Assembly (NCBI RefSeq): GCF_031457275.1
Contig: NZ_JAVDWH010000001.1
Coordinates: 1,612,001-1,676,000, forward strand
Origin: Aeromicrobium panaciterrae
GTDB lineage: Bacteria; Actinomycetota; Actinomycetes; Propionibacteriales; Nocardioidaceae
DNA: 64,000 bases
Direction of reading: 5' to 3'
Positions 28,476 to 62,928 of the stretch are shown piece after piece (the first letter of the stretch is position 1; every line of letters begins with the position of its first letter). Below the pieces are notes generated by a model. That model was given only the letters and a program-made list of their open reading frames with translations. It was not told the DNA's origin and did not search any database. A program made the translations under genes and the position numbers.

Positions 28476-28549
28476 CGGGCTGTAGCGCAGCTTGGTAGCG
28501 CACCTGACTGGGGGTCAGGGGGTCGCAGGTTCAAATCCTGTCAGCCCGA
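28476..28549 (+). tRNA. tRNA-Pro (anticodon GGG), probable island attachment site
   Basis: This is a 74-nt cloverleaf. The acceptor arms are CGGGCTG (28476-28482) and CAGCCCG (28542-28548) with discriminator A. The D arm is around GCGC-agcttggta-GCGC. The anticodon arm is CCTGA-CTGGGGG-TCAGG, with anticodon GGG. The T arm contains GGTTCAAATCC. CCA is not encoded. Island genes start directly downstream, and tRNA 3' ends are classic targets of tyrosine integrases. No second copy of its 3' end is seen in the window. Confidence 0.95.
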
Positions 28550-28556
28550 CAGAAAA

Positions 28557-29738: not shown

Positions 29739-30921
29739 TCAAGGTGCGTCGTCGCTTCGGAACTGTTCCAGCGTCTCCCTGAAGTCCGGCGCCGGTGGAC
29801 GCTGGATGTAGTGGTCCTTGGTGACCTTGTCGCTGGTATGACCCAGCTGCTCAGCCGAACCCTCAGATCCATGCTCGCGTGCGATGAGTGTTGCCACCGT
29901 CCTGCGGAAGTCGTGAGGAGTGACTTCCCCGAAGACCGTGCCTTCCCTGATCTTGCGCCAGGTGCGGCGCACATTGTTGGGAGACACCCACGTCCCGCTG
30001 CCAGTGGCGAAGACTGCGTTGTGCGGGTTGGGTTCACTGCGAGCCTTCATCCTGGTCAGCGTCTCGACAGCGAAGAGCGGCAGGTAAAACCGTCCTGATT
30101 CCGGCTGGGGTCTTGGTGGTCGAACGCGTGATGCCCATGCCGGAGCGCTTGCCCTCCAACACTGAACCGTTGATCGTGAGGGTCGGCCTCTCGCTCTCGA
30201 GGTCGATGTCGCTCCACCGCACAGCCAGAGCTTCGCCGATACGACATCCGGTGGCGAGCATGATGTCGACCAGGTCGCCCATCAGAACCGACACAGGACC
30301 TGGTCGCTTCCTGCGGTCATAGAGGAAAACGGCGTGACGGAGTGCCTTCAAGGTGTCGGAGTCGATGGCTCGGACCTCCTTCTTCTCCTTAGCCATCGTG
30401 GTCGAGTCCACCATCGGGTTGATGTTGACGGCCTCCAGCTGCACCGCCATGGGGAACATCAGCGACAGGACGGTCTTTGAGTGGCGGAACACCGACGGCT
30501 TGCCAAGCTCGCGCAACTCACGCAGGAACCTGTCGATCGTCCTCGGCCTGATCTCCCGCAGCCGCAGCTGACCGAGGGAGGGCTGGATGTGCCTCGCGTA
30601 CATCGCCTCGTAGTCACTGATGGTCTGCTCCGTGCGCCGGCCGTCCGCCCTGGCCTCCTCGAACCAGCGGGTTGCGAGCTGGTCGAGGGTCGAGGCCGAC
30701 GTGATCTGGTCCTCCTTGTGCCCACGATGGTCGAGGTCGCCATCCCTGAGTTTGAGCGTCAGCGCCAAGACAGCGGCGCTCTTCGACGGACCCCTGGCCT
30801 CGCTGTTGCGGTAGGCCCCAGCGTGGGTCCGATACGCAGCCCTCGCCACGTACCGGCCGTCAGGAAGTGCCCTGGTGCTGATCGTTCCCCAGGCTCCCGG
30901 TTTTAGCCTGTCACGCGGCAC
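29739..30921 (-). pseudogene. Tyrosine integrase split by a +1 frameshift
   Basis: The 5' part (30921 down to about 30085) encodes the arm- and core-binding domains (TISDYEAMYARHIQPSLGQL) and the first catalytic Arg (ATGCRIGEALAVRW). The 3' part (about 30095 down to 29739) is in another frame and carries HDFRRTVATLIAREHG and LGHTSDKVTKDHYIQ, i.e. the His-x-x-Arg, final His and Tyr. Total length is 1183 bases, one more than a multiple of three. The break lies near the minus-strand sequence GGTTTTACCTGCCGCTC; one extra T or C there explains it. As written no complete integrase is made. A homopolymer sequencing error or natural decay are both possible. Confidence 0.85.
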
Positions 30922-33563: not shown

Positions 33564-33770
33564 TCAACACAAGAAGGTCGTCTGGTGCAATCCAAACTTG
33601 TCGGGGGCCAGACCCCGTTTGAAAATTCAAGAAAGTTCCGCTGCTGCCTGCTGCGCTTGGACTTGCCCAGCTGTCGGCGAACAGGGAACTGATCACGAGC
33701 AGAGCGTCCTTAGCCTCGGATTCTGTGCGGCTTGCACGTGGGTCCCATTGACGCGTGGGAGAGTACTGAT

Positions 33771-34688
33771 GTGACGAGCGAGCAGCCGAGCCTCTTCGAC
33801 GGAGACGAGTCGTCCGCGAATGAACTGAAAGCAGCAGCGGAGCTTTGGGCATTGACGCAACTGCCGGGAATCGGAAACGCTCGCGCTCTTCGCCTTTCCA
33901 GCGGCTTCGCGTCTTGGGATGAACTCGTTGACGCGTCCCCAGCGGCTCGTAGGCAGGTGGCTGGCGCCGAGATCGATTACGTTCCGGCCATGCCTGTCCC
34001 GCGCGTTCCCGAAGGCGTTCAGCTCTGCGGCTATTTCGATGACGACTACCCGGATGCGCTCAGGGCGATAAAGAATCCACCGGTGGCACTCTGGGTCCGG
34101 GGAGAAATCGCTCGATCGACCCCATCAGTCGCCGTAGTTGGCGCACGTGAGGCCAGTGACTGGGCGATCCAAATGGCTGGGTCCATTGCCGCAGATGCGT
34201 CCGAACTCGGTGTCGCGGTGGTATCCGGCCTTGCATTTGGAATCGACATTGCAGCTCACCGGTCAGCGTTGACATCTGGTGGCCGAACGATCGCTGTGCT
34301 TGGGAGCGGAGTCGACGTTCCGACACCTCGTGAGCACCTGGCCGATGCTGAGCGCATTCTCGAAACCGGGGGAGCGTTGATTTCGGAAGTTCCCCTTGGC
34401 AGTGCGCCGAACCCGAGAACGCTTGTGGCTCGCAACCGAATTCAGAGCGGCTTGTCGTTCGCGACGATCGTTGTCGAGTGCGGGCTGAAATCTGGCACTA
34501 TGCAGACCGCAAAGTTTGCCGTCGAGCAGGGGCGCCGACTATGCGTGCCATCGCCCGAAGCGCACGATGAATCCGAGATGAACGCCGGAAGCCGAAGCTT
34601 GCTAGACATCGGGGTGGGCAATGTCGCTGCTGAACGACTCCGATCCCGTGAGGATCTCCATGAACTCCTTCGATCCGCGGCTTCCTGA
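33771..34688 (+). CDS. DprA/Smf-like protein (SLOG superfamily)
   Basis: The protein is 305 residues. An N-terminal helix-hairpin-helix (LTQLPGIGNARALRLSSGF) precedes the DprA Rossmann-like domain: SVAVVGAREASDWAIQMAGS, VVSGLAFGIDIAAHRSAL, and FATIVVECGLKSGTMQTAKF near the end. DprA loads RecA on single-stranded DNA during transformation, while island copies of the SLOG fold are often linked to nucleotide ligands in conflict systems. The usual C-terminal winged helix is short or missing. GTG 33771 follows GGGAGAG. The next gene is a ComF-like phosphoribosyltransferase, which is the striking feature. Confidence 0.85.
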   Translation: MTSEQPSLFDGDESSANELKAAAELWALTQLPGIGNARALRLSSGFASWDELVDASPAARRQVAGAEIDYVPAMPVPRVPEGVQLCGYFDDDYPDALRAIKNPPVALWVRGEIARSTPSVAVVGAREASDWAIQMAGSIAADASELGVAVVSGLAFGIDIAAHRSALTSGGRTIAVLGSGVDVPTPREHLADAERILETGGALISEVPLGSAPNPRTLVARNRIQSGLSFATIVVECGLKSGTMQTAKFAVEQGRRLCVPSPEAHDESEMNAGSRSLLDIGVGNVAAERLRSREDLHELLRSAAS

Positions 34689-41447: not shown

Positions 41448-42103
41448 TCGAAGTCAGCCCGCCCGAGGTGATCGTGGCGAAGGCACTCATCAAGTCTCGC
41501 CAACGGGTCTCCGACCACGGAGAGGTCTTTACGCCCGACTGGCTGGTCGAAACCATGCTGGATCTGGTTCGTGAAGAGTCGCAACGCATCGACTCGCGGT
41601 TTCTCGAACCAGCCTGCGGGGAGGGCAACTTCCTGATGAAGGTCCTCGAGCGAAAGCTCGCCGCTGTACAGATTAAGTACGGACAGAGCGAGTTCGAGAA
41701 GCGGCACTTCTCGTTGCTTGGCCTCATGTGCATCTACGGCATCGAGTTGTTGCCGGACAATCTGGACGAGTGCCGGGCGAACATGCTGGCGATCTTCGTG
41801 GACTTCCTCAAGCTGACGGAGGGCGACGATCTGTTGATCGCCGGCGCCTACGTGCTCAGCAAGAACATCGTCCTCGGCGACGCCCTCACGATGCTCAATG
41901 ACAAAGGCAGCGCCATCACGTTCGCGGAATGGGGCTACCTCGGGCGCGGCAAGTTTCAACGCCGCGACTTCCGGTTCGACACGTTGACGCAGATGAGCGC
42001 CTTTGGAGAGGAAGACACGTTGTTTGCGGACCTCGGCCGGCATGAAGTATTCACGCCCTCGAAGAACTACACGCCGATGACAGTCAGAGAGTTGAGCGCA
42101 TGA
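41444..42103 (+). CDS. N6-adenine DNA methylase-like protein lacking the NPPY motif
   Basis: The protein is 219 residues. HGEVFTPDWLVETMLDLV and FLEPACGEGNFLMKVLE (motif I, SAM binding) are typical of gamma-type N6-adenine methyltransferases. The chain then stops without the NPPY catalytic motif; its end is a short tail with GYLGRGKFQRRDF. It is thus half an enzyme. The next gene begins with the same EVFTP element and has NPPY, so the two may work as a complex or the first is a remnant duplicate. Confidence 0.75.
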   Translation: MIEVSPPEVIVAKALIKSRQRVSDHGEVFTPDWLVETMLDLVREESQRIDSRFLEPACGEGNFLMKVLERKLAAVQIKYGQSEFEKRHFSLLGLMCIYGIELLPDNLDECRANMLAIFVDFLKLTEGDDLLIAGAYVLSKNIVLGDALTMLNDKGSAITFAEWGYLGRGKFQRRDFRFDTLTQMSAFGEEDTLFADLGRHEVFTPSKNYTPMTVRELSA

Positions 42104-43783
42104 GTGAGAAGGCGAGTTTCGCGTTGCGTGGACGAAACCCCGACGTTCTTACCTGCATCGCCAATCTCTCGAACGATGAGGTCTTCACGCCCCCGGACTT
42201 CGCTAACAGCATGCTCAACAACGTGGCGACGATGTGGGCCGAGGGCCATGGTGGAGAGGACTTGTGGTCTAGGTCTGACGTGACTTTCCTCGACCCCTTC
42301 ACAAAGTCAGGAGTGTTCCTCCGAGAAATAACGACACGACTCACCAAGGGTCTCGAAGAAGCCATCCCCGACCTCGATGAGCGAGTCGAGCACATCCTCA
42401 CTCAGCAGGTTTTCGGCATCGGAATCACGGACCTGACCAGCATGCTCGCTCGCCGCAGTCTTTACTGCTCGAAGAGGGCCAACGGTCCACACTCGATTGC
42501 GAAGTCGTTTGGCGCCGAGCAAGGCAACATCTGGTTCGAGCGCACTGAACACACCTGGGTGGGCGGAAATGACTCGGTGGTCACTGCCGACAAAGACGGC
42601 AACAGCATCGAAAAGTCCACCAACGGCAAATGTAAATACTGCGGTGCAGGTCAGCTCGCCCTCGACCGTGGCGAAGCGTTTGAGACCCACGCCTACGCCT
42701 TTATCCACACTGAAGACATACGAGTTCGCATGGGCGAGCTGTTCGGAGAAGACATGCAGTTCGACGTCATCATTGGAAATCCTCCGTACCAGCTCAACGA
42801 TGGGGGATTCGGCACGAGTGCCGCACCCATCTATCAGAAGTTCGTGGAGCAGGCGAAGTTACTCGATCCTCGCTTGCTGACGATGGTCATTCCTGCGCGT
42901 TGGTTCGCAGGGGGCAAGGGTCTAGATGACTTCCGGGAGTCGATGCTTACGGACGACCGAGTTCGGTCAATTGATGACTACCTCAGCGCCGCGGATGTGT
43001 TTCCTGGCGTTGGCCTCAAGGGCGGCATTTGCTACTTCCTGTGGGATCGCGATAACGCTGGTCCCTGCCGGGTCACCACCTACCTCAACAACGAGGAACC
43101 CTCGACGACTACCCGCCAGCTTCTCGAGAAGGGGGCGGATGTTTTCATCCGCTTCAACGAGGGCCTGTCCATCCTCAAGAAGGTCGTCGCCGTAGAGACA
43201 GGTCAGTCACATTCAGTTGCGCTACCTAAGGAGAAGCGGTTTGATCAACTGGTCTCCTCTCGTAAGCCGTTCGGGCTGGAGACGACCTTTAAGGGCAAGC
43301 CGACGAAAGCCGATGGCGATGTCCTGATCTACCAGAACGGTGGCACCGGCTACACGCCTCGGGGTGTCATCGCTCAGGGCGAGCACCTCGTGGACAAATG
43401 GAAGATCTTCACGGGACGAGCGGCACCAGGAACGGGCAATAGAGACACGTACCCGCACCGGATTCTCAGTACGCCATTTATCGGTGAACCAGGCAGCATC
43501 TCGTCGGAGACCTACATAGCTATCGGTCCCTTCGATTCGAAGGACGAGGTCGAGAGCGCCTTGTCCTATCTCACCTGTCGACTCACGCGTCTATTGGTTC
43601 TGCTTCACAAGCCGTCGCAGGACACTACGCGCAAGGTCTACACCTTCGTCCCCACGCAGGACTGGACACAGCAGTGGACCGATGAGGCGCTGTACGACAA
43701 GTACGGCATCAACGAGGAAGAGAAAGCGTTCATCGAGAAGGTAGTGCGTCCAATGGACCTCGACCTGCTGGGTGGCATCGCGG

Positions 43784-43791
<8 letters not shown>
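42100..43791 (+). CDS. N6-adenine DNA methyltransferase of an RM system (Eco57I-like)
   Basis: The protein is 563 residues. DEVFTPPDFANSMLNNV and VTFLDPFTKSGVFLRE correspond to the N-terminal element and a degenerate motif I. CKYCGAGQ is a possible small zinc site, and FDVIIGNPPYQL is the catalytic motif IV. The second half probably holds the target-recognition domain. It overlaps the upstream methylase by 4 bases and the helicase gene by 8. It likely modifies host DNA at the site cut by the following gene. Confidence 0.88.
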
Positions 43792-46339
<2,548 letters not shown>

Positions 46340-46478
46340 TCAGTGACCGGCAGGAACAGCTCCGAGAGCAAGAGATCGTGGAGATTCGCGTCCTCATGAG
46401 GGATATTTCTGATCGCGAATGTACGATCATCCGACTCGATAGGCTGACGAGGTCCTACTTCGTCGACTCGGGGGAAAT

Positions 46479-49400
46479 GTGCACGAGAATCTCGTCAATC
46501 TAGGGACTGTGATCCGGGACTTTCTCGCCGAGAATCTGCCAAAGATGGGGCCGGACTGGTGGGACCGGGGGGTCATTGGTGCCCTCTCATTTCCACAACG
46601 CTCCACAGCTCGCGATCGGGATTGGGCAAGCCTTGCCGACCTTGATTTTGCTGCACTCCTGCGGGTTCTTGATCAGAACTGGGAGTTCTTTCGAGGACGG
46701 AAATTCGTGTCCTACGATGCCCGAAACTGGGTTAAGGAAGCCTCGAGTATTCGCAACCGGTGGGCCCACCAAGCACCCGGTCACGAGCCCGCTCCAAGTT
46801 TGGTCTACCGCGACATCGACACGTTGGCGCTCCTGGCGACAGAGCTTCATGCCGATGCCGCGGGAACGCAGGCGCTGTCGGAGGCCCGTGTAAGCGCCTC
46901 GAAGGACTTGGCGCCGTCAGACACTACAACTGCTCAACCGCCGGAGTATGTTCAGCCGCATGGCCTCGCACCCGGCTCCAAGGTGCGCTTAAAGGCCAGG
47001 CCCGACGTCATCGGTGCCGTCCTAAGCATCAGCGATTCCCCCGGCGAGCGACGAGTGGGGGTGTTCCACGGGCAGGTCACGCAGACATACTTTGAGTCTC
47101 AGCTCGAACTCGTCGAGGAGCCAACCGGTGATCAGCTCACGGCAGACGAGTTGAAGGCGCGCCTGACAGCTGCGTACGTGCTCCATCCAGCAGTTACCCG
47201 CCTCTACTCCCTTAACAGTGGCCGGATCGATTACGAGCCATACCAGTACCGGCCGGTCATGAAGCTCATCAGCGCCGATAGGCCCCGCCTATTGATCGCG
47301 GACGATGTCGGGGTGGGCAAGACAATCGAGGCCGGCCTCATCATCAAGGAACTTCAGGCACGTCAGAAGCTGGACTCCATCTTGGTCATCTGCCCCAAGC
47401 CATTGGTTGTCGAGCACAAATGGCGCGACGAACTGAGAAGATTCGACGAGGATTTTGCCCAACTCGACAGCGCAACTCTCAGGCATTGCATCGAGGAGAC
47501 ACGATCGGAAGGTCATTGGCCCGCCCGTTATCGCAAGGCGATCGTTCCGTACTCCTTGCTCGACGAGCGGCTGCTCCTGGGTGATGAGTCTGGGCACCGG
47601 CCGCGGACCGGACTTGCCTCGCTTATGCCGCCAGCAAAGTTCGATCTGGTTATCGTCGACGAGGCGCATCACGTCCGAAACAGCGATACCTGGAGCCACC
47701 GCGTCGTCAAGCATTTCCTGGACGCTGCCGAGGCCGCCGTCCTCATCTCGGCGACACCCATCCAGACCGGCAGCGATGACCTAAAGACGCTACTGCGTCT
47801 CCTGCGTCCCGACTTGTTCGGCGAGACATCTGCGTTCGAGCTGATGCGTCAACCAAATAGCCACCTGGCCAGTGTCGAGCAAGCGATACGAGGCGCGGAC
47901 GAAGAATGGCAATTGGATGCGCTCCTGAATCTAGAAGAGGCGCTCGCCACAACATGGGGCGCGAAAGTTCTGCTCGCAGACCCCCGCGCGCAGGAACTCC
48001 ACGACCTTCTCGAAGACCATGAGATCGACGATCGTGAACGTGTCCAGGCATTGCGTCTCACCCAGTCGCTCAACACATTCTCTGGACTCATTAATCGGAC
48101 GCGCCGCCGGGACATCGGATCCTTCACAACTCGCAAGCCGGAAACACTTGAGGTCGACTTCACGTCGGAGCAGGAAGCCGTATATGACGACCTTCTTGAG
48201 CTTGCCGGGCGCATTACGAGGGAGAGCGGCGCTGGTCAATCCCTTGACTTCATACTTTCGACGCTCAAGCGCCAGGCAGCGAGTTGTCTCAACGGTCTTG
48301 CACCGTTCGTGGACGATCTCCTCACGCGCAAACTTTCCCTTGAGGAGCTGAGCGAAGCAGATGTCGACCTTGAGAAGCTTGATACGACCGAAATCGAGGG
48401 ATTCGTTCGTGAGATCACCGATCTTGCGGCCAGAGCGGCGAAATTAGACGACGACCCCAAACTGGATACCTTCCTTGGGCTCGTCGGCGACAAGCAGGAG
48501 CTGCCGAATAACAAGCTGCTGGTCTTCAGCACCTTCCGCCACACACTCGGGTACTTGAATGCGCACCTCGAAAGCACGCCTGTGCGCGTGGGCCTCGTTC
48601 ACGGCATGGTTCCTGATGATGTCCGTCGCGAACTTCGCGCGCGATTCGCCAAGCCGAAGGAAGATCCGGAGGCAATCGACGTCCTTTTGTCGTCCGAGGT
48701 GGGAACTGAAGGTCTGGACTATCAGTTCTGCGATTACCTCGTGAACTACGACATCCCTTGGAACCCGATGCGCATCGAACAGCGCATTGGACGTATCGAT
48801 CGCCGGGGCCAAGTCAGCGAGACTGTCGCGATCAAGAACCTTGTTGTCTCGAACACCGTCGATGCCGTGATCTTTCATAGATGCTTGGAGCGAATCGGCG
48901 TGTTCCAGCGCGCGCTCGGCGGAAGCGAAGTGATCCTCGGGGAACTCACGCGAGAGATTCGCACGATTGGTGACGACCTCCAGCTCACGCCAGATGAACG
49001 TGATCTGCGCCTTCGCCAGCTCGCGGACAATAAGATCGCCAAGATCCAAGAGCAGCAAGAGCTTGAGGAGCGCGAGTCGTCACTATTCGGCCTGTCGTTA
49101 AAGCACCTCGACGACGACGGAGTCGAGCAGGCGGCCAGCCCGTGGCTAGCGCCCGATCAACTTGCACGTCTCGTGGTTGGCTATTTGCGTGACCAGGGCT
49201 ATGAGCGCGCTGACACACTGTTTGATCGTCAGGTCGCCGTCTTCCGCCCTGACAAGGAAGTTCGGTCGGCCCTCCTAGTTGATCTGAAAAGCAGCAGTCG
49301 CGAGACGTCATCGTGGGAACGGTGGCTCGCTACGCCCTCTGAGCAGTCGCGCCGACTGACATTTGATCCCAAGAGCGCAACCAGTTCGGAGATCGAGCTT

Positions 49401-49973
49401 CTCTCGCCAGTTCACGATCTGGTTCGCGCCGCAGCCGTGCACAACGCGGGATTCCCCGCCCACAGCACATTCTCGATGGTGGTCGAGTCGAACGATCTGC
49501 CAGCCGGCGTCCACCCGGTCAGCATTCATGGGTGGACGTATCTAGGGTCTCGCGAGGACTTCGAACTTGTCCTCACTACAGCTACCAATCTAGATCCGGA
49601 GCAAAGCACCAAGATGCTTCTGAACGGGTCCGACGCCGCTGTGCCCGGCCAGCAAGACGCGACGCCAGAACTTGATGAACTCCACTACATACGGTGGTCA
49701 GACGCGCGAGGTGCACACGTCGAACGAACTCGGGTCCATATCGAAAGCCAGTCGGCTTCGCTACGGACAACCCACGGTGCGCGAGTTCAGTTGATTGAGG
49801 ACCAGTTGTCCAAGGCTAACGACGACCGAATCCGACGAATGCGTGAGTCTGAGTTGGCCACAGTCGAGGCAGACTTCGACGCACGCTCGCATCGACTCGC
49901 CCAGGACGTCGAACGTAGCGAGTTGACGAGCGAACTCCTGTGTCGCGGGCTGATTGAGGTGATTCATGGCTGA
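46479..49973 (+). CDS. SNF2-type helicase with an N-terminal Swt1-like HEPN domain
   Basis: The protein is 1164 residues. Residues 1-105 form a helical domain ending in IRNRWAH, which gives the R-x4-H pattern (Arg92-His97) of HEPN ribonucleases such as the Swt1 type. A RapA/SNF2 helicase follows with Walker A IADDVGVGKTIEAGLII near 277, VIVDEAHH at 392-398, and LISATPIQTGSDDLKTLLRL. The C-terminal half has YDIPWNPMRIEQRIGRIDRR. GGGGAAAT lies just before GTG 46479. The stop overlaps the ATG of the HSP90-like gene. A nuclease toxin tied to a DNA or RNA translocase is a plausible reading. Confidence 0.85.
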   Translation: MHENLVNLGTVIRDFLAENLPKMGPDWWDRGVIGALSFPQRSTARDRDWASLADLDFAALLRVLDQNWEFFRGRKFVSYDARNWVKEASSIRNRWAHQAPGHEPAPSLVYRDIDTLALLATELHADAAGTQALSEARVSASKDLAPSDTTTAQPPEYVQPHGLAPGSKVRLKARPDVIGAVLSISDSPGERRVGVFHGQVTQTYFESQLELVEEPTGDQLTADELKARLTAAYVLHPAVTRLYSLNSGRIDYEPYQYRPVMKLISADRPRLLIADDVGVGKTIEAGLIIKELQARQKLDSILVICPKPLVVEHKWRDELRRFDEDFAQLDSATLRHCIEETRSEGHWPARYRKAIVPYSLLDERLLLGDESGHRPRTGLASLMPPAKFDLVIVDEAHHVRNSDTWSHRVVKHFLDAAEAAVLISATPIQTGSDDLKTLLRLLRPDLFGETSAFELMRQPNSHLASVEQAIRGADEEWQLDALLNLEEALATTWGAKVLLADPRAQELHDLLEDHEIDDRERVQALRLTQSLNTFSGLINRTRRRDIGSFTTRKPETLEVDFTSEQEAVYDDLLELAGRITRESGAGQSLDFILSTLKRQAASCLNGLAPFVDDLLTRKLSLEELSEADVDLEKLDTTEIEGFVREITDLAARAAKLDDDPKLDTFLGLVGDKQELPNNKLLVFSTFRHTLGYLNAHLESTPVRVGLVHGMVPDDVRRELRARFAKPKEDPEAIDVLLSSEVGTEGLDYQFCDYLVNYDIPWNPMRIEQRIGRIDRRGQVSETVAIKNLVVSNTVDAVIFHRCLERIGVFQRALGGSEVILGELTREIRTIGDDLQLTPDERDLRLRQLADNKIAKIQEQQELEERESSLFGLSLKHLDDDGVEQAASPWLAPDQLARLVVGYLRDQGYERADTLFDRQVAVFRPDKEVRSALLVDLKSSSRETSSWERWLATPSEQSRRLTFDPKSATSSEIELLSPVHDLVRAAAVHNAGFPAHSTFSMVVESNDLPAGVHPVSIHGWTYLGSREDFELVLTTATNLDPEQSTKMLLNGSDAAVPGQQDATPELDELHYIRWSDARGAHVERTRVHIESQSASLRTTHGARVQLIEDQLSKANDDRIRRMRESELATVEADFDARSHRLAQDVERSELTSELLCRGLIEVIHG

Positions 49974-52900
49974 GTCGGCCGTTCCCGAAGAGGGGTCGTT
50001 TACTCAGCTTCGAGAAAAGCGATTGAGTTACGTCACGGCAGCGCGCGAAAACGGGTTCGAGAAGGGGCTACGCACACTCCTTGCCGAGCTGTACCCGGAC
50101 GAGGCGCACTTCATATACGAGCTGTTGCAGAACGCGGAGGACGCTCAGGCGAGCGCAATTGAGTTCGACCTAACGGACGCCGCCCTCACGGCGACTCACA
50201 ACGGCCGACGCCAGTTCAGGCTCGCCGACATCGAAGCCATCACGAGTATTGGGAACTCGACAAAGAAGGACGATGAAACGCTCATCGGCAAGTTTGGAGT
50301 GGGCTTCAAGGCAGTGTTCGCCTACACCGACCGGCCTGAAGTGCGTTCCGGAGAACACGCGTTCGCGATTGTGGACCTCTTCGTCCCTGAAAAAGTCGAC
50401 GCGGTCATAGACGGACTCAAGACGACCTTCGCCTTTCCTTTCGATCGCGCCGAGAAGCCAGCCGGGCTCGCTTACCAAGAGATCGAGAAGGCGCTACGAG
50501 CCCTTGACGAGAAGACGTTGCTATTCCTCACCAACATCTCCTCGATCAGTTACACGCTCGCGGATGGCACCATCGGGATTCTTGACCGGAAGGAGAACGA
50601 CGACCTCACAATCGTGATCCAGAAGTCTGAGGGTGCAAACTTCGTAGAGTCCCACTGGCTGCGTCTGATCGGTCCGGCAAGCGTGCAACCAACCGCGGCG
50701 GGCGCCCTGACGGTGGCGGCGGCCTTCAGCCTCTCGGAGAAGCGGCCGCTCAGGAAGGGGGGTAAATCCAGCGGGTCCAACCCGCCGCGTTCACGGGGCA
50801 TTGTTCCCCTCGCCGAACGTGAGGGTGAGGTTTCGATCTACTTCCCAGCTGTCAAGGAGGAGGCCGGACTCCGATTTCACATACACGCACCGTTCGCATC
50901 GACTGTGGCTCGTGACAGCGTGCGTGCAACGCCAGAGAATCAGCAGCTGGTCGAGGACATCGGTGCCCTGATCGCGTCGCACCTGGCGGGGTTCCGCGAC
51001 CTCGACCTCATAGACGATGGCCTCCTAGAGGCGCTTCCCAACGCAGGTGACGCCCTCGAATGGCCCTATTCGGCGATCCGCGACGCAGTGGTCGAAGCAT
51101 TCGATACGCAGGCGCTGGCACCGATCTACGGTGGCGGATTCGCGCCGGCTACACAGCTGGTGAGTACGCCGGAGGAAGTGCGGTCTGGTCTCGAGATGAA
51201 GGACCTCCCGCTGCTTCTCGAACTAGCTGAGGTGGACCACCCGACCGAACCGAGGTGGATCGCGCCGCGTCGTGGGCGCGCTGAGCGATTCCTAAGTCAG
51301 CTCGCCACTGCAGAATTCGGTTGGGACGGCTTAAACTCGGCGCTCGAGGCGATGGAGGTCTCGACGAATTATGTATGGATGAACGGAAGGTACATCCGTT
51401 TAGACCAGGCACCTACCCCAGCTCAGGTCGACAAGTGGACCGCATGGCTGGGCGAGAAGAGTGACGCCAAACTCCTCGACCTCTACCGCCTGATCGGGCA
51501 CGGCGTGTATTCAGGTGAACTCGATTCGAATGCTCTCGAGACCATTCCGATCGTTCGTCTGCGCCGTAAAGGAGAGGTCGTCCATGTCCGCGGGACGGAG
51601 ACTTTCCTTCCGGAGAGCAGGAGCGACAAGGTCCAAGCACGTGTGCCCGTGGAGCTCGCCTACTTCGACAGCGACGTTCAGGACGATCCAGGACTGCGTA
51701 CGTTCTACAAGTCCGTCGGAGTCGAGCGTTGGAACGCCGATGCTCGGGTTGACACTCGTCTTCAGCCGTATCGCGACGGGGCCCTCGATGCTGTAGAGGT
51801 CGGCGACCATCCTGCGAAGCATTTGGAGGATATGGCCGCGTTTGTGAAGCACTGTAGTGCCGACTCCGAGGTCACGCGGAAAATGTTCACAGGAGTCGAG
51901 TTCGTTCTGGCCGCCGATGACGGCGCAGAGTGGGATTGGGTCAGCCCGGAGTCGATATACCTTGACGAACCATTCCACGACACCGGTCTCGCCGCTATCT
52001 ACCAGCAGACCCGCTGGGCGCTCCCGGGAATCTATCTCGAGATCGAGGGGATAGCTGAGTTCCTCGTCAAGGCCGGCGCCATCGACAGGGTTCGATTCGT
52101 GAATGCGTCGGCGCGTTCCAATCCAATGTTCGAGTGGTCCTGGGCTCGCGGGACGCGAGAGAGTGCTAAGACAGTCAAGCGCGATTGGGACATCGAGCAT
52201 TTCGATGCGATTGTGGCCGCCAATGACACTCGGTTGTTCAAGAGCCTTTGGGAGGCAGTCGCGACTGTCGGTGCTGACCACGCGACCGCGACCTATCGGG
52301 CCAACGCCAGCAACCCGATCCACAGGTTCGACTCCAGGGCGAAGCAGCGGCTCGAAAGTGCGCCCTGGATCCCGAGTCCGAACGGTGATTTGGTCCGACC
52401 AAGTCAGATCGAGCGCCAACATCTCCCCTCGAACTGGGTCGAACCGAGACCAGGCTCTTTGGCCATCGAACTGAACTTTGGGGCAGAAGCTCATGCAATC
52501 CGAGAGCGGGAGACTCAAGCTGAGGCGCGGTACGAGCAAGACCTCGAGGCGGTCGAGCGGCTGGGAATCTCAAGCAAGAACCTCGATATCTATCGAGATC
52601 TCGAAGAGATCCCGAGAGAGGACCTCATGGCATTCCTTGCGGAGCAACGGGATCATGCTCGGCTGGCCGAAGCTAGTTCTCTCGACCCAGTTCGGCGCGC
52701 GGAGATCGCAACTGCTGATGCGGTCAACGCCACCCAGCACCGCACCGAGCAGAAGCTCCGAAGCGTGGTTGTTGGAGCTGACACGGCGAGAGCTGATTCG
52801 AAGAATTACCTGCGCGAGCACTACACGACCGCTGCTGGCGACATGTCCTGCCAGGCGTGTTGGCGGCTCCTTCCGTTCAAGGTCAGTGGGCGGTGGTACT

Positions 52901-53178
52901 TCGAAGCCATTCCGTTTGCGAGAGATCGCAAGTACGTTCACGTAGCCAACGCGATTGCCCTATGTCCGCTATGCGCGGCGCTGTATCAGCACAAGAGCGA
53001 GACGAAGCCGACTGACCTGGTCGCTTCGCTGCTCGACATCAAGATCGAGCGGGGCCAAGGTTCTGTGGAGATTCCCGTACTCATCAACGACAAGCGAGTG
53101 CGAATCCGGCTGACCGGCAAGCACGCGATCGACCTTCAGTCAGCGTTGCGCGCCGCCGGGGAGCAACGGTCCAAATGA
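49966..53178 (+). CDS. Sacsin/HSP90-like GHKL ATPase with a C-terminal zinc-finger-like region
   Basis: The protein is 1070 residues. YELLQNAEDAQASAIEFDL at 51-69 is the N-box of the sacsin-type HSP90 ATPase, and LIGKFGVGFKAVFAYTD near 107 is the glycine-rich lid. The long middle has no domain I can name. Cys962/Cys965 and Cys1000/Cys1003, around CQACWRLLPFKVSGRWYFEA, form a possible zinc site. It overlaps the helicase stop by 8 bases, so both are translated together. GHKL ATPases of this type open and close on ATP. Confidence 0.82.
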   Translation: MAESAVPEEGSFTQLREKRLSYVTAARENGFEKGLRTLLAELYPDEAHFIYELLQNAEDAQASAIEFDLTDAALTATHNGRRQFRLADIEAITSIGNSTKKDDETLIGKFGVGFKAVFAYTDRPEVRSGEHAFAIVDLFVPEKVDAVIDGLKTTFAFPFDRAEKPAGLAYQEIEKALRALDEKTLLFLTNISSISYTLADGTIGILDRKENDDLTIVIQKSEGANFVESHWLRLIGPASVQPTAAGALTVAAAFSLSEKRPLRKGGKSSGSNPPRSRGIVPLAEREGEVSIYFPAVKEEAGLRFHIHAPFASTVARDSVRATPENQQLVEDIGALIASHLAGFRDLDLIDDGLLEALPNAGDALEWPYSAIRDAVVEAFDTQALAPIYGGGFAPATQLVSTPEEVRSGLEMKDLPLLLELAEVDHPTEPRWIAPRRGRAERFLSQLATAEFGWDGLNSALEAMEVSTNYVWMNGRYIRLDQAPTPAQVDKWTAWLGEKSDAKLLDLYRLIGHGVYSGELDSNALETIPIVRLRRKGEVVHVRGTETFLPESRSDKVQARVPVELAYFDSDVQDDPGLRTFYKSVGVERWNADARVDTRLQPYRDGALDAVEVGDHPAKHLEDMAAFVKHCSADSEVTRKMFTGVEFVLAADDGAEWDWVSPESIYLDEPFHDTGLAAIYQQTRWALPGIYLEIEGIAEFLVKAGAIDRVRFVNASARSNPMFEWSWARGTRESAKTVKRDWDIEHFDAIVAANDTRLFKSLWEAVATVGADHATATYRANASNPIHRFDSRAKQRLESAPWIPSPNGDLVRPSQIERQHLPSNWVEPRPGSLAIELNFGAEAHAIRERETQAEARYEQDLEAVERLGISSKNLDIYRDLEEIPREDLMAFLAEQRDHARLAEASSLDPVRRAEIATADAVNATQHRTEQKLRSVVVGADTARADSKNYLREHYTTAAGDMSCQACWRLLPFKVSGRWYFEAIPFARDRKYVHVANAIALCPLCAALYQHKSETKPTDLVASLLDIKIERGQGSVEIPVLINDKRVRIRLTGKHAIDLQSALRAAGEQRSK

Positions 53179-56349: not shown

Positions 56350-57636
56350 ATGAGCCTGCTGGCTCAACTGCCCAAGCTCTCGCAGTTGGACGAGGCGGAT
56401 ATGCCAGAGGGCGGTCTAGACCCCCTCGGCCTTTCAGCCGCTGCCGATCGATTGGCGGACGCGATCGTGCCCGGTCTGCGTGCCCGCATGTCGCAGCCCC
56501 GGTTCGTCAGCCTCGCGCTTGCCGGGGCGCTTGCGTGCCAGGACCTGACCGACGTGGTGTCGATCGACGGGTCGACCCGCTTCGACGTCGCATTCGAGTG
56601 GCTCGTGGTCGAGGCGTTGGTAGTGAACCGGCCCGACCAACTTGCCGGTGTCCCGGGAGGCACCAAAGCGAAGCGGGCCCGCGCTGGACGAGCAAGGCTT
56701 AGCGCGAAAAGCTATCTGAGCGGCCCGCGGGTGTTCGGATTCACCGGCGTGTACCGGCCTTTCGCGATCGCGGCCGGTGTGGTGGACCAAGACGGGCTGC
56801 CGACAGCGGCGGCCGAGCCACTTCTCCGTGCGTGGGAGAAGGGAGCCGGGTTGCCCGGCTTCGTGGACGGCACGCCCGGTACCACCGGCAACAGCCTGCG
56901 TCGCGAGATCCGTGAACAAGTACTCAGGTCTCTCAAGCATGGCCAGTCGACAGCCCCGATCGAAGGTCAGTTCCTGAATGATCTCGCGGGCCACGTCACT
57001 GCCCAGGGAGCCAAGGGTCGCGAGCGGGCCGCGCTGCGCGCGTTGATCCTCGAGCCTCTAAACGGCGGTGCCCGATACGAGCTGGGCACGCTGCTTGCCG
57101 GTGATCTACCCGAGGCCACGGCCATCGACCCGGAGATCGCCGCCGGCCTCGTACGCCGTGCCAGCGGCGAGACCCAGGCACGGCTACGAGCCGCGATCGC
57201 GTACGAGAATTGCGCGACACTCATCGACACCACGTTCCGTCAAATCCTCAATCACGCCGGTCAGCACTCCGGACTTCTCCGCTCCAGTGACGCGCCTCGC
57301 CTTGAGGTGCTGACCCTGACGTCGCCGCGCGTTGCACCATTGGTCTCGACCGCAATCGCGGCCGCCGAAAACCTCGATGCGGGGATCGCGACGAGTGTGG
57401 TCGAGTCGCTATCGACGTTCGAGAGCGTTCGGCGACCAAACGAGATGTTCGATGCCCTGATGGACCGGCACGAGAAGGTTCAGGCTGCCAAGGCCAAGCG
57501 GTCTTGGCTCGACCCGTACGCCGACGACTGGCTCGTCCGCGGGCCGTATCAGACTCAGCCGTTCGCCTCAGAAGGTGGATGGAGTCATCCGATGCGGCTG
57601 AGAACACTGGTTCAGTTCCTCCGGGAGACGTCATGA
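56350..57636 (+). CDS. Unrecognised first protein of the PLD/SNF2 cassette
   Basis: The protein is 428 residues from ATG 56350; ATG 56314 would add 12. It is mostly helical. DPLGLSAAADRLADAIVPGL then RARMSQPRFVSLALAGALAC resembles the opening of accessory proteins found with PLD nucleases and helicases, but I cannot name the family. The stop overlaps the PLD gene by ATGA, so all three genes are translated in a chain. It could be a sensor or specificity subunit. Codon use and GC match the cassette. Confidence 0.65.
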   Translation: MSLLAQLPKLSQLDEADMPEGGLDPLGLSAAADRLADAIVPGLRARMSQPRFVSLALAGALACQDLTDVVSIDGSTRFDVAFEWLVVEALVVNRPDQLAGVPGGTKAKRARAGRARLSAKSYLSGPRVFGFTGVYRPFAIAAGVVDQDGLPTAAAEPLLRAWEKGAGLPGFVDGTPGTTGNSLRREIREQVLRSLKHGQSTAPIEGQFLNDLAGHVTAQGAKGRERAALRALILEPLNGGARYELGTLLAGDLPEATAIDPEIAAGLVRRASGETQARLRAAIAYENCATLIDTTFRQILNHAGQHSGLLRSSDAPRLEVLTLTSPRVAPLVSTAIAAAENLDAGIATSVVESLSTFESVRRPNEMFDALMDRHEKVQAAKAKRSWLDPYADDWLVRGPYQTQPFASEGGWSHPMRLRTLVQFLRETS

Positions 57637-59609
57637 AGCTCCAACCGCTCCTTGACCACTGGTCTGCCCCTGCCGACGCCGGATCACCGGTGGCAATTTT
57701 CGCGACCACATTCGTGTTGGATCCGGACTTCTTCGAACGCGACTGCCTGGCGCGCTTCCTCGCCCTTCAAGCCGTCGATGAGGAAACCGGATCGGCTGAC
57801 GACACGATCGCTCGCATCGAGCTCGAGGAGAAGCTGACCGAGCCGTCGATCACGGTTCTTGCCGACCGCAGCACGTCAGCGGAGCGCGGTTCTTTGCGTT
57901 GGAATCTCCTGCATTGCTTTCACCGCGGCGGCCTACTTCATGCGAAGGTCGCGATTCTGATCTGGGAGAACGCCACTCGTGTCGTTTTGGGGTCGGCCAA
58001 CCTGACTTCGGCTGGGTATAGGCGCCAGATCGAAATGGCGTTGGCGGCGGACCTCGGACCGGGTTGCTTGTTCCCACAACCTGTCCTCGAACAGTTGGCG
58101 AACGAATTGGCTGAGTTGCTGGGGCTGGTGCAAGGGCTGCGCCCGGGTATTCCGGCCTACGACCAGGCGCAGAGGACGCTGAGCATCTTCCGTGATCGGA
58201 TCGCCTCCTCGGGCGCGGGATCTTCGAAGGTGCTGGTGAGTCTCGCCCCGACCAAACCAGGGGCGAGCCCTCTCCAGGGAAGCTCGCTCGTCTGGAAGGG
58301 CTCTCAGCCTGTACGGGCCGTCCAACTGTCGCCGTTCTGGGACTCGACAGACGCGACCGCGGTGAAGGAGGTGCGGGCTCTACTCACGGGACGCGGCCAA
58401 CCGCGAAGTCATTCCATTGCCACGGTGATCTCGCCGTACGGCACGATTCCGGTCACTCCGATCCACCGAGCTCAGGTGGACAAGGTCGTCGAACTCGGGC
58501 CTATCGACCAGGAGTCATCTCGGCTTCTCCACGCGAAGTGCTTGCTGCTTGAGAGCGACACGTGGGTTGCCGCACTAGTCGGATCCTCGAACCACACCAA
58601 GGCGGGCCTCGGGCTGGGCGGTCGCAGCCATCGAGAACTAAATGTGTGGCTGGGAGCGTCGTCTGGCTCGGCCGAGGGCAAGGCGCTGCGCAACCTAATT
58701 CCACAGGGCAAGGCTGTTCCGGCCGACGTGGATTCGAATGACGAAGCGACCGATGAGGACGAGGTGGAACCGCCGGTGCTCCCGCTGGGTTTTCAACTCT
58801 GCCGGCTGCACTGCTCGGACGAGAGATGGCACCTCACGTTGTCGCTTGATCCCCGGGAACTGCCGGAGAAGTGGACGGTCAGGACGGAACTCGGCGTCGT
58901 GCTCGACGCCACACGTTGGGAAACGCTAGGTCGCCCCAGCGAATTCGTTGAAGACGTCTCCGTCGAGCACCTGCCCACCTTCCTAACGGTTACCTGGGAA
59001 GGTGGCGCGGCGAGTTGGACAGTGTTGGCGGACGACCGCCACGTTCTGCCACCTGGTCCCGGGATCGGTGCATTCAAGGCTCACCAGCTCTTTGCGGCCC
59101 TGAGCTCCGGTAAATCCATCACCGAAGCAATGCGTGACGAGGCGACTCGACAACAGAACCTCGGCGGAGCACTCGAGCTCGACCCCCTCAAGCGATACGA
59201 CAGTCAGACCACGTTGCTGCGCCGCGGACGCGCCCTCTCGGCGGCACTTGAGGCGTTGCGACGTCGCCTGGAACGTCCTGTGTTATCGGTCGACGCGCTC
59301 GCGGCCCGACTTGCCTCGCCGTTGGCACCGGACTTCTTGGCCGCCAAGACAGCACAGTCGGTTCTTGAGGGCGAGCAGGACCTGCCCGAAGGATTGTTCA
59401 CTCTCGGCGAGCTCGCCCTGGAGTTGGGGCGAGTCAACTGGGCGGCCACGTTCAAGGCGCTGGAGGACACCGCCGAGGCGTATGCGCTCGTGGGTGGGGC
59501 GATCGACCAAGTGAAGGCCCACGTCGCTTCGCTCGGTTCTGACGAGACCGCGCTGATGGGCTACGCGACGCGATGTGTGCAGGAGGCCCGCCGATGCCTA
59601 CCGAACTGA
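57633..59609 (+). CDS. Phospholipase D-family nuclease-like protein
   Basis: The protein is 658 residues with two PLD-type half sites. LLHAKVAILIWENATRVVLG then SANLTSAG is the first, and LLHAKCLLLESDTWVAALVG then SSNHTKAG the second. Both keep His-x-Lys and the Gly-Ser-x-Asn loop, but the usual Asp four residues after Lys is replaced, as in some DISARM-type DrmC relatives. The middle is beta-rich and the C-terminus helical. It is coupled on both sides, so it is probably the nuclease arm of the cassette. Confidence 0.82.
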   Translation: MKLQPLLDHWSAPADAGSPVAIFATTFVLDPDFFERDCLARFLALQAVDEETGSADDTIARIELEEKLTEPSITVLADRSTSAERGSLRWNLLHCFHRGGLLHAKVAILIWENATRVVLGSANLTSAGYRRQIEMALAADLGPGCLFPQPVLEQLANELAELLGLVQGLRPGIPAYDQAQRTLSIFRDRIASSGAGSSKVLVSLAPTKPGASPLQGSSLVWKGSQPVRAVQLSPFWDSTDATAVKEVRALLTGRGQPRSHSIATVISPYGTIPVTPIHRAQVDKVVELGPIDQESSRLLHAKCLLLESDTWVAALVGSSNHTKAGLGLGGRSHRELNVWLGASSGSAEGKALRNLIPQGKAVPADVDSNDEATDEDEVEPPVLPLGFQLCRLHCSDERWHLTLSLDPRELPEKWTVRTELGVVLDATRWETLGRPSEFVEDVSVEHLPTFLTVTWEGGAASWTVLADDRHVLPPGPGIGAFKAHQLFAALSSGKSITEAMRDEATRQQNLGGALELDPLKRYDSQTTLLRRGRALSAALEALRRRLERPVLSVDALAARLASPLAPDFLAAKTAQSVLEGEQDLPEGLFTLGELALELGRVNWAATFKALEDTAEAYALVGGAIDQVKAHVASLGSDETALMGYATRCVQEARRCLPN

Positions 59610-62344
59610 GCTCGCAGCTAAAGACTCATGCGGCGAAGGGTTTTGAGGACGACTGGAAACGTCAGCGGCGCACGGCTCGCGACATCTTGAATCGGTTGGA
59701 CGAGCAAGAGGGCGTGATCCTGGCCGACCAGGTCGGCATGGGAAAGACGTACGTCGCACTCGCCGTGGCGGTTTCGAAGATCCTTGAGAAGAAGAAACAG
59801 CAACAAGTCGTGGTTCTCGTCCCACCTGCGGTGGCCCAGAAGTGGGTCGATGATTGGGCCAAGTTTTCCGGAGCGTTGCTCGATCCCGACGTCGAAATTC
59901 GATGTGTTGCTGAACCGATTCGAAGCGGAGAGGGGCTGCTGGCTGCGCTCGACGACCCTCAGGAAACCAGAAGCCACCTGTTGGTGGTGACCCACACCGC
60001 CCTGACCGCGTCGCTCAAGGACAGTTTCATCCAGCTGGCGTTGCTCCAGGCCGCCACCAAGGGTAGGCCGGGTGTGCAGGCCCAGCGAGATCGCATCGCC
60101 AAATGGTGCGTCCGCCGAGACGGGCTTCTGCGTGACTCGCGTCTCACCACCGACCGGGTGTCACTTCTTCTGGCACATTCTGCGGCTGAATGGCGCCAGG
60201 TGTGGAGCGATATCACCGGCCAGGACCTGCCTGATGACCCTGTTCCGTTGGCGGTGCAAGAGGCACTGAGTGGCCTCGATCTGAGCGACCTTCGAGCCGT
60301 GATCGACGACCTCCCGATTAGAAGATCGGCGGGGATCACCTACAAACTGAAGACGGCGAGAGCCAGTCTTGAGATCGTGACGCAGAGTCTGTGGCGGTTG
60401 GTGCTGTCGTCGACGAACCTCAAGCGTCCGCTTCTGATCGTCGACGAGGCGCATCGACTCAAGAACGAACAGACCCGGATCTCCCAGCTCTTCGCGCCGC
60501 GGGCCGAGTCCGAGACCAGTGGCGCTCTGTCCGACATCTTCGAGCGGATCGTCCTGATGACGGCGACACCCTTTGAACTCGGCCATCGGGAACTCATCAG
60601 CGTGCTCTCCCGACTCTCGGCAGTGCGACCGATGCCGAAGGGGACAGAGCCGTTGGAAAATCGCCTCGACGCTCTGAGTGAAGCTCTCCAGAACGCCCAG
60701 GCTGCCGCGGTCACGTTCGACCACGACTGGGGAGAGATCGATGCGGCAGACGCCCACTTGTTTGATCAGTGGAGCAAGAACTCACCCCCGCCGACCGAGG
60801 CCAGCGCACAAATCGTCACTGCGTGGCGCTCCGCGACGAACTCGATCGCCAGCCGGAAGGCGATGAACAAGGCCCTGGCGCCCTGGGTGATCAGGCACCA
60901 ACGGCCTTCACGTCGAACTCATCTCCCCGGAGGCGCGATCCTTGTCGCCAGCGATGCTGACAGCAGGCATGGGCTCACCGTGTCGGACGAAGTCGTCCTC
61001 CCATTCCTGCTCGCTGCGCGAGCGCAGTCGGTGGCTGCCGAGGATGGCGCTTCCCGCCCACTGTTCGCCTACGGCATCGCATCCTCGTTCGAGGCGTTCA
61101 GGCGTCTTGGCTCCTCAGAACCGGACCTCGATTCGGATACCCGGGCCGACGACGAGGACCGTGATTCGGGGATGGTAGGGGTTCGGCACCAACGCGGCGG
61201 CAGTGCTGCGGACTGGTATCGCCGTGAGATCGATGCTCTCCTGGTCGACGGCGGTCTAGATCGATCGTTGCATCCCAAAATCAAGGCAACCGTCGACCGC
61301 GCGACCCAGCTCTGGTTACAAGGCGAGAAGTGCGTGATCTTCGCCTGGTACGTCGCGACCGGAGGTGCCCTTGAAAAGGCTTTGGCACAGCGGATTGAAG
61401 AGTTCGTTCTCGAGAGTGGTCGCAAGCGTCTCGGGCTGGCCGGCGCCGACAGTGACGTCGTACTCGCAGGATTCCGGAGGATCTCGGACAGACTCCTTCG
61501 AGGCGACTCGCCCGGCTACGAGTTGGTGACCGGACACCTTCGGGCGTTCTACGGGGAGCATGTCGCCGGCGCGGTTCCGAGGGAACGCGAAGCACTGATC
61601 GGCAAGTTGGTCGAGGCCACGGTGCGCTACCTGAGAAGGCGCGAGGTCCTCGTCAGGTTCACGGACCTGCATACAGAGCTGACTGCTGAACAGCTGTGGG
61701 CAGGCATATCGGGATCGAACTCGCAGGGCATCTCCCTGTTGCCACGGTGGCAACGGTTCGGGGAGCGGATGGCTGAATCGGGTGAGAAGGAACGCAAGCG
61801 GGTCATGGATGCGCTCCTGGGCGACCAAGGTACGACAGATGCGGAGGCGCACGGATCCGGGGATAGCGACTTGTCCGGTGGACTGGGAGCTCGCCTTGAC
61901 CCGGTACGACGAGCTCACGGTGGGACTCGACGGGAGGACCGGGAACGTCTGACGGCGGTCTTCAACACTCCCTTTGCCCCCGACGTGCTCGTGGCGAGTT
62001 CGGTTATGGGGGAGGGCATTGACCTTCATCACGAGTGTCGACACCTGATTCACCATGATCTCGACTGGAACCCGAGTGTCCTGGAGCAACGGACCGGAAG
62101 GCTTGACCGCATCGGTGCTCTTGCCGAGCATGACGGCTGCAACATCGACGTCTATGAGCCGTATCTGGCAGGCACACACGACGAGAAGATGTTCCGAGTC
62201 GTCAAAGATCGCGCCGGCTGGTTCGACGTCGTGATGGGGCGACCCGTCGCCCACGACGAAGCGCACACCGACGCTGAGGAAAGCCGTGTACCGCTTCCTG
62301 CGGCGATCGTCGACGCGCTGACGATGGATCTTGAGAGCAGGTAG
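59594..62344 (+). CDS. SNF2-family helicase of the PLD cassette
   Basis: The protein is 916 residues. AGGAGG (59581-59586) sits 7 bases before ATG 59594. Walker A is ILADQVGMGKTYVALAVAV near 41, LLIVDEAHRLKNEQTR is Walker B, LMTATPFELGHRELISVLSR is motif III, and LVASSVMGEGIDLHHECRHL with LDWNPSVLEQRTGRLDRI forms the second half. It overlaps the PLD gene by 16 bases. Together with the first protein it forms a translocase-nuclease module; no methylase is adjacent, unlike DISARM. Confidence 0.88.
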   Translation: MPTELSSQLKTHAAKGFEDDWKRQRRTARDILNRLDEQEGVILADQVGMGKTYVALAVAVSKILEKKKQQQVVVLVPPAVAQKWVDDWAKFSGALLDPDVEIRCVAEPIRSGEGLLAALDDPQETRSHLLVVTHTALTASLKDSFIQLALLQAATKGRPGVQAQRDRIAKWCVRRDGLLRDSRLTTDRVSLLLAHSAAEWRQVWSDITGQDLPDDPVPLAVQEALSGLDLSDLRAVIDDLPIRRSAGITYKLKTARASLEIVTQSLWRLVLSSTNLKRPLLIVDEAHRLKNEQTRISQLFAPRAESETSGALSDIFERIVLMTATPFELGHRELISVLSRLSAVRPMPKGTEPLENRLDALSEALQNAQAAAVTFDHDWGEIDAADAHLFDQWSKNSPPPTEASAQIVTAWRSATNSIASRKAMNKALAPWVIRHQRPSRRTHLPGGAILVASDADSRHGLTVSDEVVLPFLLAARAQSVAAEDGASRPLFAYGIASSFEAFRRLGSSEPDLDSDTRADDEDRDSGMVGVRHQRGGSAADWYRREIDALLVDGGLDRSLHPKIKATVDRATQLWLQGEKCVIFAWYVATGGALEKALAQRIEEFVLESGRKRLGLAGADSDVVLAGFRRISDRLLRGDSPGYELVTGHLRAFYGEHVAGAVPREREALIGKLVEATVRYLRRREVLVRFTDLHTELTAEQLWAGISGSNSQGISLLPRWQRFGERMAESGEKERKRVMDALLGDQGTTDAEAHGSGDSDLSGGLGARLDPVRRAHGGTRREDRERLTAVFNTPFAPDVLVASSVMGEGIDLHHECRHLIHHDLDWNPSVLEQRTGRLDRIGALAEHDGCNIDVYEPYLAGTHDEKMFRVVKDRAGWFDVVMGRPVAHDEAHTDAEESRVPLPAAIVDALTMDLESR

Positions 62345-62415
62345 GCGGAATCCCGCGATCGCCCAAGGCGCCCACGCAAATCGAGTCGGCCACCTCCGAA
62401 CGGCATGATGTCTCC

Positions 62416-62928
62416 ATGACTCACCTGTCTAATCGAGACAACTCCGGGGGTCATCAATCGAGAACTGCCCGGACAGCTGAACTTGTCGACAAACTGCATT
62501 CGATCGTGTCCGAGTTAGAGAGTATGCATCCGGGAAGGAAATTTCCCTTGGACGGACACCTTGTCGGGTCGATTGGCGAGGCGGCGGCAGAAACACTTTT
62601 CGATCTCGAACTTCTGCCAGCTTCTACGTCTGGCCATGATGCAATCGCGACCGACGGGCGCCGTGTGGAAATCAAGGCGACATACGGGACGCAGGGTGTT
62701 GGGATCCGCAGCACTTCGGAGCAACACGCGGATGCTCTGGTGGTTCTCCGATTGTCGCGGGACCCGCGAATCGGTCACGAGATCGTCTTCAACGGACCCT
62801 TTCGGATCGCATCGGACGTCGCCGGCAAGATGCAAAGCAACGGTCAAGCTCGGGTGAGCTTGAGCCGTCTCCGATCGTTAAACGCGGCCGTCCCACAGGC
62901 AGATCGCGTCCCATTCCGCAGCGCCTAG
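62416..62928 (+). CDS. Small PD-(D/E)XK-like protein (DUF6998-type)
   Basis: The protein is 170 residues. HLVGSIGEAAAETLFDLELL then GHDAIATDGRRVEIKATYGT gives Glu55, Asp75, Glu85 and Lys87 in the order of a PD-(D/E)XK nuclease. I recall such sequences as DUF6998 proteins near restriction systems, without certainty. It starts 72 bases after the helicase on the same strand and may be the fourth cassette gene. It converges with the next gene. Confidence 0.65.
   Translation: MTHLSNRDNSGGHQSRTARTAELVDKLHSIVSELESMHPGRKFPLDGHLVGSIGEAAAETLFDLELLPASTSGHDAIATDGRRVEIKATYGTQGVGIRSTSEQHADALVVLRLSRDPRIGHEIVFNGPFRIASDVAGKMQSNGQARVSLSRLRSLNAAVPQADRVPFRSA

Follow-up and report, generated by a model that had tools for sequence, protein, structure and literature searches.

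The stretch of DNA considered here (the window) comprises 64,000 nucleotides (nt) of Aeromicrobium panaciterrae and corresponds to bases 1612001-1676000 of its genome, a single contig of 2.8 Mb (GCF_031457275.1, contig NZ_JAVDWH010000001.1); positions below are window coordinates. It contains a run of three plus-strand genes, here called A, B and C, or the trio. Gene A (56350..57636) encodes a helical protein of 428 amino acids (aa) that appears remotely related to ZacA/DUF6361 in its N-terminal part. Gene B (57633..59609, 658 aa) encodes a predicted two-half phosphodiesterase of the phospholipase D (PLD) superfamily (residues 1-373), followed by C-terminal beta and helical domains, and gene C (59594..62344, 916 aa) a putative helicase or translocase of the superfamily 2 (SF2)/SNF2 type. 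The overlaps between the genes are seen directly in the sequence: A and B share 4 nt, ATGA (57633..57636, +), B and C share 16 nt (59594..59609, +), and AGGAGG (59581..59586, +), the likely ribosome-binding site of C, lies 7 nt 5′ of its ATG. A first-pass annotation, made from the sequence alone, had described four open reading frames (ORFs), three of them in this chain of overlaps, and the description is accurate at each position. The frame of A can be extended to an upstream ATG at 56314; the alignment start of most relatives is near 56350. Predicted promoters and terminators between 56000 and 63000 were no more numerous than in shuffled sequence.

The three genes form a real, co-inherited unit. 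Direct searches with A gave no match in genome contigs and none in plasmids, and the helicase was the fallback query; all relatives were therefore selected through C, which led to 16 loci in the genome contigs. Three loci at contig edges (L019, L020, L023) were left out of the trio count, and one record (L006) was dropped as a copy of another (L022). The order A-B-C is kept in 12/13 loci having about 10 kb upstream of C, the sole exception (L024) being a 163-aa C fragment with neither A nor B. Gene B appears as two ORFs in L014, one of the 12, and this locus was left out of the B alignment and of the distance correlation. The A-B overlap is 4 nt in 12/12 relatives, an internal B start having been chosen by the analyst in five (L011, L013, L015, L016, L018). 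That between B and C is 16 nt in 10/12, with an internal C start so chosen in L009 and L016, and deviates to 13 nt in L021 and 4 nt in L018. Pairwise protein distances for the window and 11 relatives (n = 12) correlate at 0.973 (A-B), 0.931 (A-C) and 0.967 (B-C); 0/2000 permutations reached such values. The earlier proposal that the trio is one conserved unit is thus borne out by the search for the three-gene order and by correlations of 0.93-0.97.

The trio is also rare and accessory. Gene A is present in 1/296 genomes of the phylum, the source genome itself, a distribution that does not support its being an unrelated core protein, which the first-pass annotation had named as a reason to give up the set. 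Gene B was found in 2/294 genomes of the family (its own with full coverage, the other through one weak match of 59 residues) and gene C in 2/396 genomes of the phylum at E<=1e-20 (its own and one other). According to record titles the relatives come from Gordonia, Microlunatus, Dactylosporangium, Rhodococcus, Mycolicibacterium, Williamsia and Dietzia, and further ones are in bins labelled Pseudonocardiales, Burkholderiaceae, Cupriavidus and Verrucomicrobia; five loci (L010, L011, L013-L015) are metagenome bins, in which species may be misassigned.

B matches PLDc_2 in Pfam (E 1.3e-7). Its two half sites, H103-x-K105 ... GSAN123 ... E134 (57939..58034, +) and H300-x-K302 ... GSSN320 ... E335 (58530..58637, +), are both invariant in the 12/12 aligned B proteins. 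The aspartate of the HKD motif is absent from both, and an invariant glutamate (E134, E335) stands in its place. The first-pass annotation had reported HxK and GSxN twice with the aspartate absent, as is the case here, and the invariant glutamate can be added to that. Half sites of the form HxK-N-E, lacking aspartate, are the motif of Tdp1 and BfiI, and catalysis in the PLD superfamily proceeds through a covalent histidine intermediate. B has the marks of this HxK-N-E group: two HxK...N half sites, glutamate or glutamine replacing aspartate, and a PLD fold. A structure model of B (predicted local distance difference test, pLDDT, 84.2) gave 43 Foldseek matches at E<=0.001, every one a Tdp1 chain. 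With VIA-align, Tdp1 scored Z 19.1 (root-mean-square deviation 3.2, 311 residues, about 15% identity), and residues 1-373 aligned with vaccinia F13 at Z 20.2, phospholipase D at 18.2 and PLD3/4 at about 17. Since the scores of the last three are similar to that of Tdp1, the predicted fold is read as that of a two-half PLD enzyme, for which Tdp1 is the best but not the exclusive match. A PDB sequence search with B found none at 0.1. The invariance of the half sites (12/12), together with a predicted fold nearest to Tdp1, marks the missing aspartate as a subfamily signature and not decay; the idea that B is a degenerate PLD protein was ruled out by the same invariance.

C matches Helicase_C (8.7e-14) and SNF2-rel_dom (4.4e-9) in Pfam. 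Its motif I (Walker A), ADQVGMGKT (59723..59749, +), has G48, G50, K51 and T52 invariant in 13/13; motif II, DEAH (60443..60454, +), is invariant in 13/13, as are Q832, R833, G835, R836 and R839 of motif VI, QRTGRLDR (62087..62110, +). Among PADLOC models, C is matched best by PDC-M27C (1.9e-36) and also by ZacC (1.7e-20), and B by ZacB (4.1e-18), by DrmC (8.8e-7) and, over 41 residues, by PDC-M27B (2.4e-4). Profile-profile comparison with hhalign gave E 1.2e-29 for C with PDC-M27C and 1.8e-10 with ZacC, the latter a match of 85 columns; for B the values were 5.7e-8 over 371 columns with ZacB and 1.2e-5 with PDC-M27B.

Gene A of the window had no match in Pfam (E<=1), PADLOC (E<=0.1), NCBIfam or PHROGs. 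It aligns with 12 relatives at 32-48% identity, the conserved stretches being GEGxLDPLGL, RARM, FEW, GPRVFGFTGVYRP and a C-terminal HxxxQxxK. In hhalign, residues 22-130 (56413..56739, +) aligned with ZacA at a probability of 78.6 and E 1.7e-5. A second comparison scored 43.0 (E 9.3e-5), whereas none of 50 column shuffles exceeded 21.5 and none of seven pairings of unlike genes exceeded 21.3. Scanned singly, 3/4 divergent A relatives are weakly matched by the ZacA profile (0.0036-0.055), and DUF6361 matches 1/13 members of the branch, at 0.083; the PDC-M27A profile gives none for window A and, among four relatives scanned, matches only L015 (4.1e-5). These comparisons point to A as a remote relative of ZacA/DUF6361 in its N-terminal part. 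The first-pass statement that the first gene has no known family holds for the four libraries, but not for profile-profile comparison, which tentatively ties the N-terminus to ZacA. The model of A (pLDDT 89.3) is nearly all helical, and VIA-align with it gave Z at most 5.3, in the range expected by chance for helical models; the best match in a PDB sequence search was a designed repeat protein (0.004). For such a model the absence of a structural match does not establish a new fold.

The gene order of the trio is the same in four loci of Azaca (L029, L031, L033, L034) and three of the PADLOC candidate PDC-M27 (L039-L041), of which L034 and L039 are respectively Azaca and PDC-M27 by the PADLOC scores of all three proteins. 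Another Azaca locus, L030, stops within B at a contig end; it and the split L035 were left out of the Azaca B set, L029 out of the Azaca C set, and L028 and L032, with a ZacA match of 76 residues, out of the ZacA alignment. Direct comparison of ZacA with PDC-M27A was not significant (E 0.79), so that the link between them passes via this branch. In a helicase tree of 24 sequences this branch (13 sequences, 100/100), PDC-M27 (100/100) and Azaca each come out as a single group. The mutual order of these three and of a set from Methylocystis is unsure in that tree, which has weak inner forks and long branches. The latter is a distant A-B-C set on a plasmid of Methylocystis sp. MJC1 (L007/L008) that spans the start point of the record; its helicase is missing from the gene table, which omits genes crossing the record start. 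Compared by profiles with this branch (A, E 3e-9; B, 6.1e-11; C, 1.5e-45) it is an outlying relative. On the pTi plasmid of Agrobacterium fabrum (L035, 10154-12010) an Azaca-like locus has two short hypothetical genes at the position of B, perhaps a broken or split ZacB.

By these homologies the trio is a divergent branch of the known Azaca/PDC-M27 kind, one that the profiles tested do not capture as a system. The first-pass annotation had suggested a separate defence type, to be given up if the trio matched a named system. It does have a branch of its own, and it is not DISARM, but its gene order and the homology of B, of C and, tentatively, of the N-terminal part of A relate it to Azaca and PDC-M27.

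The original description of Azaca is reportedly that of Millman in 2022. In the passages drawn on from the articles concerned, a PLD-like domain is common to Mokosh and Azaca (PMC10952713), ZacC is taken as an SF1/SF2 helicase (PMC12278908), the mechanism of Azaca is listed as unknown (PMC10482375, PMC12926258), and Azaca and Tiamat occur in one island hotspot of Pseudomonas (PMC12629846). A search for the term in PMC12839542 and PMC12458937 gave no mention of Azaca. In the literature outside subscription, no mechanism for Azaca was found in the passages searched, and no mention of PDC-M27 or DUF6361 was found.

The trio lies on an island of 49.2 kb that runs about 13.7 kb past the window (into L047). 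The left end is a repeat of 36 bp (28515..28550, +) located where tRNA-Pro has its 3′ end; the right copy lies outside the window, at window-equivalent 77737 (genome position 1689737, ending at 1689772), 49.2 kb from the left one. A tyrosine-type integrase (30034..30921, -) is found 1.5 kb inside the left repeat, with matches to Phage_int_M (3.3e-8), Phage_int_SAM_3 (5.8e-8) and, under the cut-off, Phage_integrase (2.3e-4), the catalytic domain being matched partly. The integrase gene may be split (29651-30921, -), given this partial match and a following ORF of 128 aa that overlaps the main one by 4 nt. The island also carries a DprA-like DNA-processing gene (33732-34688, +; E 1.2e-58). At 42100-53178 (+) there is a near-contiguous set of an Eco57I-type methylase, a T5orf172+ResIII protein, a DrmD-like SNF2 helicase and a sacsin/TmtA (Tiamat)-like protein, which may be one composite restriction system. 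The DrmD-like helicase is about 6 kb, and the methylase about 13 kb, upstream of the trio. Beyond the window are a gene resembling type IV restriction endonucleases (REases) (L047:8425-10347, 6.2e-59) and a PDC-M02B-like gene (L047:11560-12930, 3.5e-128).

The relatives have a similar setting. Their flanks (12 relatives, 113 ORFs, 49,878 residues) match 260 PADLOC models at 1e-10, compared with 37 for 139 control ORFs (49,860 residues) taken elsewhere in eight of these genomes; as PADLOC models overlap, neither figure is a count of systems. The control ORFs come from 12 of 15 stretches (L048-L059, the last in part; L060-L062 were left out). Together with the restriction and defence genes of the island, this bears out the defence-type setting claimed at first.

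Downstream of C is a gene (62416..62928, +) that matches DUF6998 (E 2.3e-41) and, weakly, a type II REase model of PADLOC (1.1e-5). The first-pass annotation had placed it in the cassette as a small nuclease-like fourth gene. Among the ORFs of >=80 aa at the loci of the 12 relatives, phmmer detected none related to it (E<=1e-3), and it is for this reason ruled out as a component and judged to be a neighbour only.

The trio is probably a mobile system directed against phages or plasmids, of the Azaca kind but with a branch of its own. This reading is supported by the gene order in 12/13 loci and its agreement with Azaca and PDC-M27, the correlated distances, the homology of B, C and part of A, the conserved half sites, the fold matches of B to Tdp1 and PLD3/4, the helicase motifs, the accessory distribution of B, and defence genes on the island and in the flanks of the relatives. 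In such a system A would be a recognition or adaptor subunit, and C a DNA translocase, probing incoming DNA at the expense of ATP. A and C would then release or deliver B, which would break the DNA backbone through a phosphohistidine intermediate, free of metal and needing no self-marking methylase. As no modification enzyme travels with the trio, the system would most likely be triggered by free DNA ends or by intermediates of replication. Likewise, since no methylase belongs to the unit, the sparing of self would probably depend on features recognised by C or A, namely ends or replication forms, and not on a mark. Several points weigh against a defence system of the Azaca kind. The PADLOC matches cover parts of B and C, and the motor of C is common to many helicases, with the DrmD and DpdE models included. 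The alignment of A with ZacA spans about 100 N-terminal residues at a probability of only 78.6%, the remainder being unaligned. The link of A to PDC-M27A is weaker (score 32.7, E 0.0025; 50 shuffles <=23.4), and Foldseek with the A model found no PDB chain at E<=0.001 (best E 0.37). The nuclease role of B is inferred from the predicted fold and motif, PDC-M27 is itself only a candidate system, and the flank control was unmatched genome by genome.

The likeness of B to Tdp1 suggests another function, in which the trio removes proteins covalently bound to DNA ends, either attacking DNA of phages or plasmids that is capped by terminal proteins or relaxases, or repairing such adducts for the host or island. 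The Foldseek matches, all of them Tdp1 chains, speak for it, as do the VIA-align score of Tdp1, the HxK-N-E half sites without aspartate and their 11-residue N123-E134 spacing, which resemble Tdp1, and C could strip or unwind ends. A fold likeness, however, does not fix the substrate, vaccinia F13 scores as high with phospholipase D and PLD3/4 close behind, and a Pfam scan of B gave no Tdp1 match; we consider this function unlikely. A bolder reading, which seems quite unlikely, makes the trio one of three branches, the third, in a widespread superfamily of helical sensor, Tdp1-like phosphodiesterase and SNF2 motor; its effector would act on protein-DNA bonds or on ends, hydrolysing these and not ordinary restriction sites. 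If true, the immune system would be one directed at protein-capped or broken invading DNA. Instead of defending against phage, the trio might also be a DNA-handling module of the island that serves to maintain or transfer it or to exclude rival elements. The integrase on the island and the plasmid location of Azaca and PDC-M27 relatives are consistent with this. On the other side, the relatives have restriction and defence genes as neighbours, and the literature counts Azaca as an anti-phage system; we regard such a module as distinctly improbable.

A reduced or split DISARM, with the trio acting together with the upstream DrmD-like helicase and methylase, is very improbable. The DrmD-like gene (46479-49973, E 6.7e-113) and the Eco57I-type methylase (42100-43791) are on the same island, and B has the DrmC matches noted above. 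Nonetheless, B reaches 27 of the 133 bits of the NCBIfam cut-off for DrmC, and C 107.5 of the 610 bits for DrmD. Neither DrmA nor DrmB was assigned among 18 island ORFs scanned with PADLOC (the larger ones and, for the two helicases, among the matches listed), and the DrmA-model matches among those listed are C and the DrmD-like gene, which both score higher with other models. Several minus-strand ORFs lie between the trio and the upstream set. In the flanks of the 12 relatives the DrmD, DrmA and DrmMII models each match 2/113 proteins among the families listed, which gives DISARM parts some presence there, but a small one. That the trio is a DISARM remnant was ruled out by the failed cut-offs and the lack of DrmA and DrmB in the scanned ORFs. 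The first-pass contention that this is not DISARM, with DrmA, DrmB and a methylase missing, is upheld for the two Drm proteins in the ORFs scanned, but an Eco57I-type methylase does occur on the same island.

As a probable defence system of the Azaca kind, the trio ties Azaca, whose mechanism is unexplained, to the unnamed catalogue candidate PDC-M27. The parts they would have in common are an N-terminus resembling ZacA, a PLD protein of two halves and a helicase, and the active site indicated is like that of Tdp1. Gene A also gains a family, one that escaped the libraries tested.

Among known systems and enzymes, Tdp1 shares with B a two-half PLD fold in a single chain and the HxK and N residues without aspartate; B differs in its extra C-terminal domains, its operon partners and its low identity. 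DISARM has PLD and SNF2-type proteins in common with the trio, which has no assigned DrmA or DrmB in the scanned ORFs, and whose B and C stay below the DrmC and DrmD cut-offs. PDC-M27, also of three genes, has the same order, provides the best PADLOC match of C and has both half sites in 3/3 of its B proteins. Its A model, in contrast, does not match window A, and its helicases form a separate supported group. Azaca (ZacA-ZacB-ZacC, ZacA being DUF6361) likewise has three tightly spaced genes in the same order, with a PLD protein at B and a helicase at C; ZacB, ZacC and ZacA appear to be remote homologues of B, of C and of the N-terminal part of A, respectively. It differs in that the ZacA and DUF6361 profiles miss window A, just 2/4 Azaca B proteins conform to the motif at their first half site, and C, at 916 aa compared with 1040-1076 aa in four Azaca helicases, belongs to a separate group in the tree.

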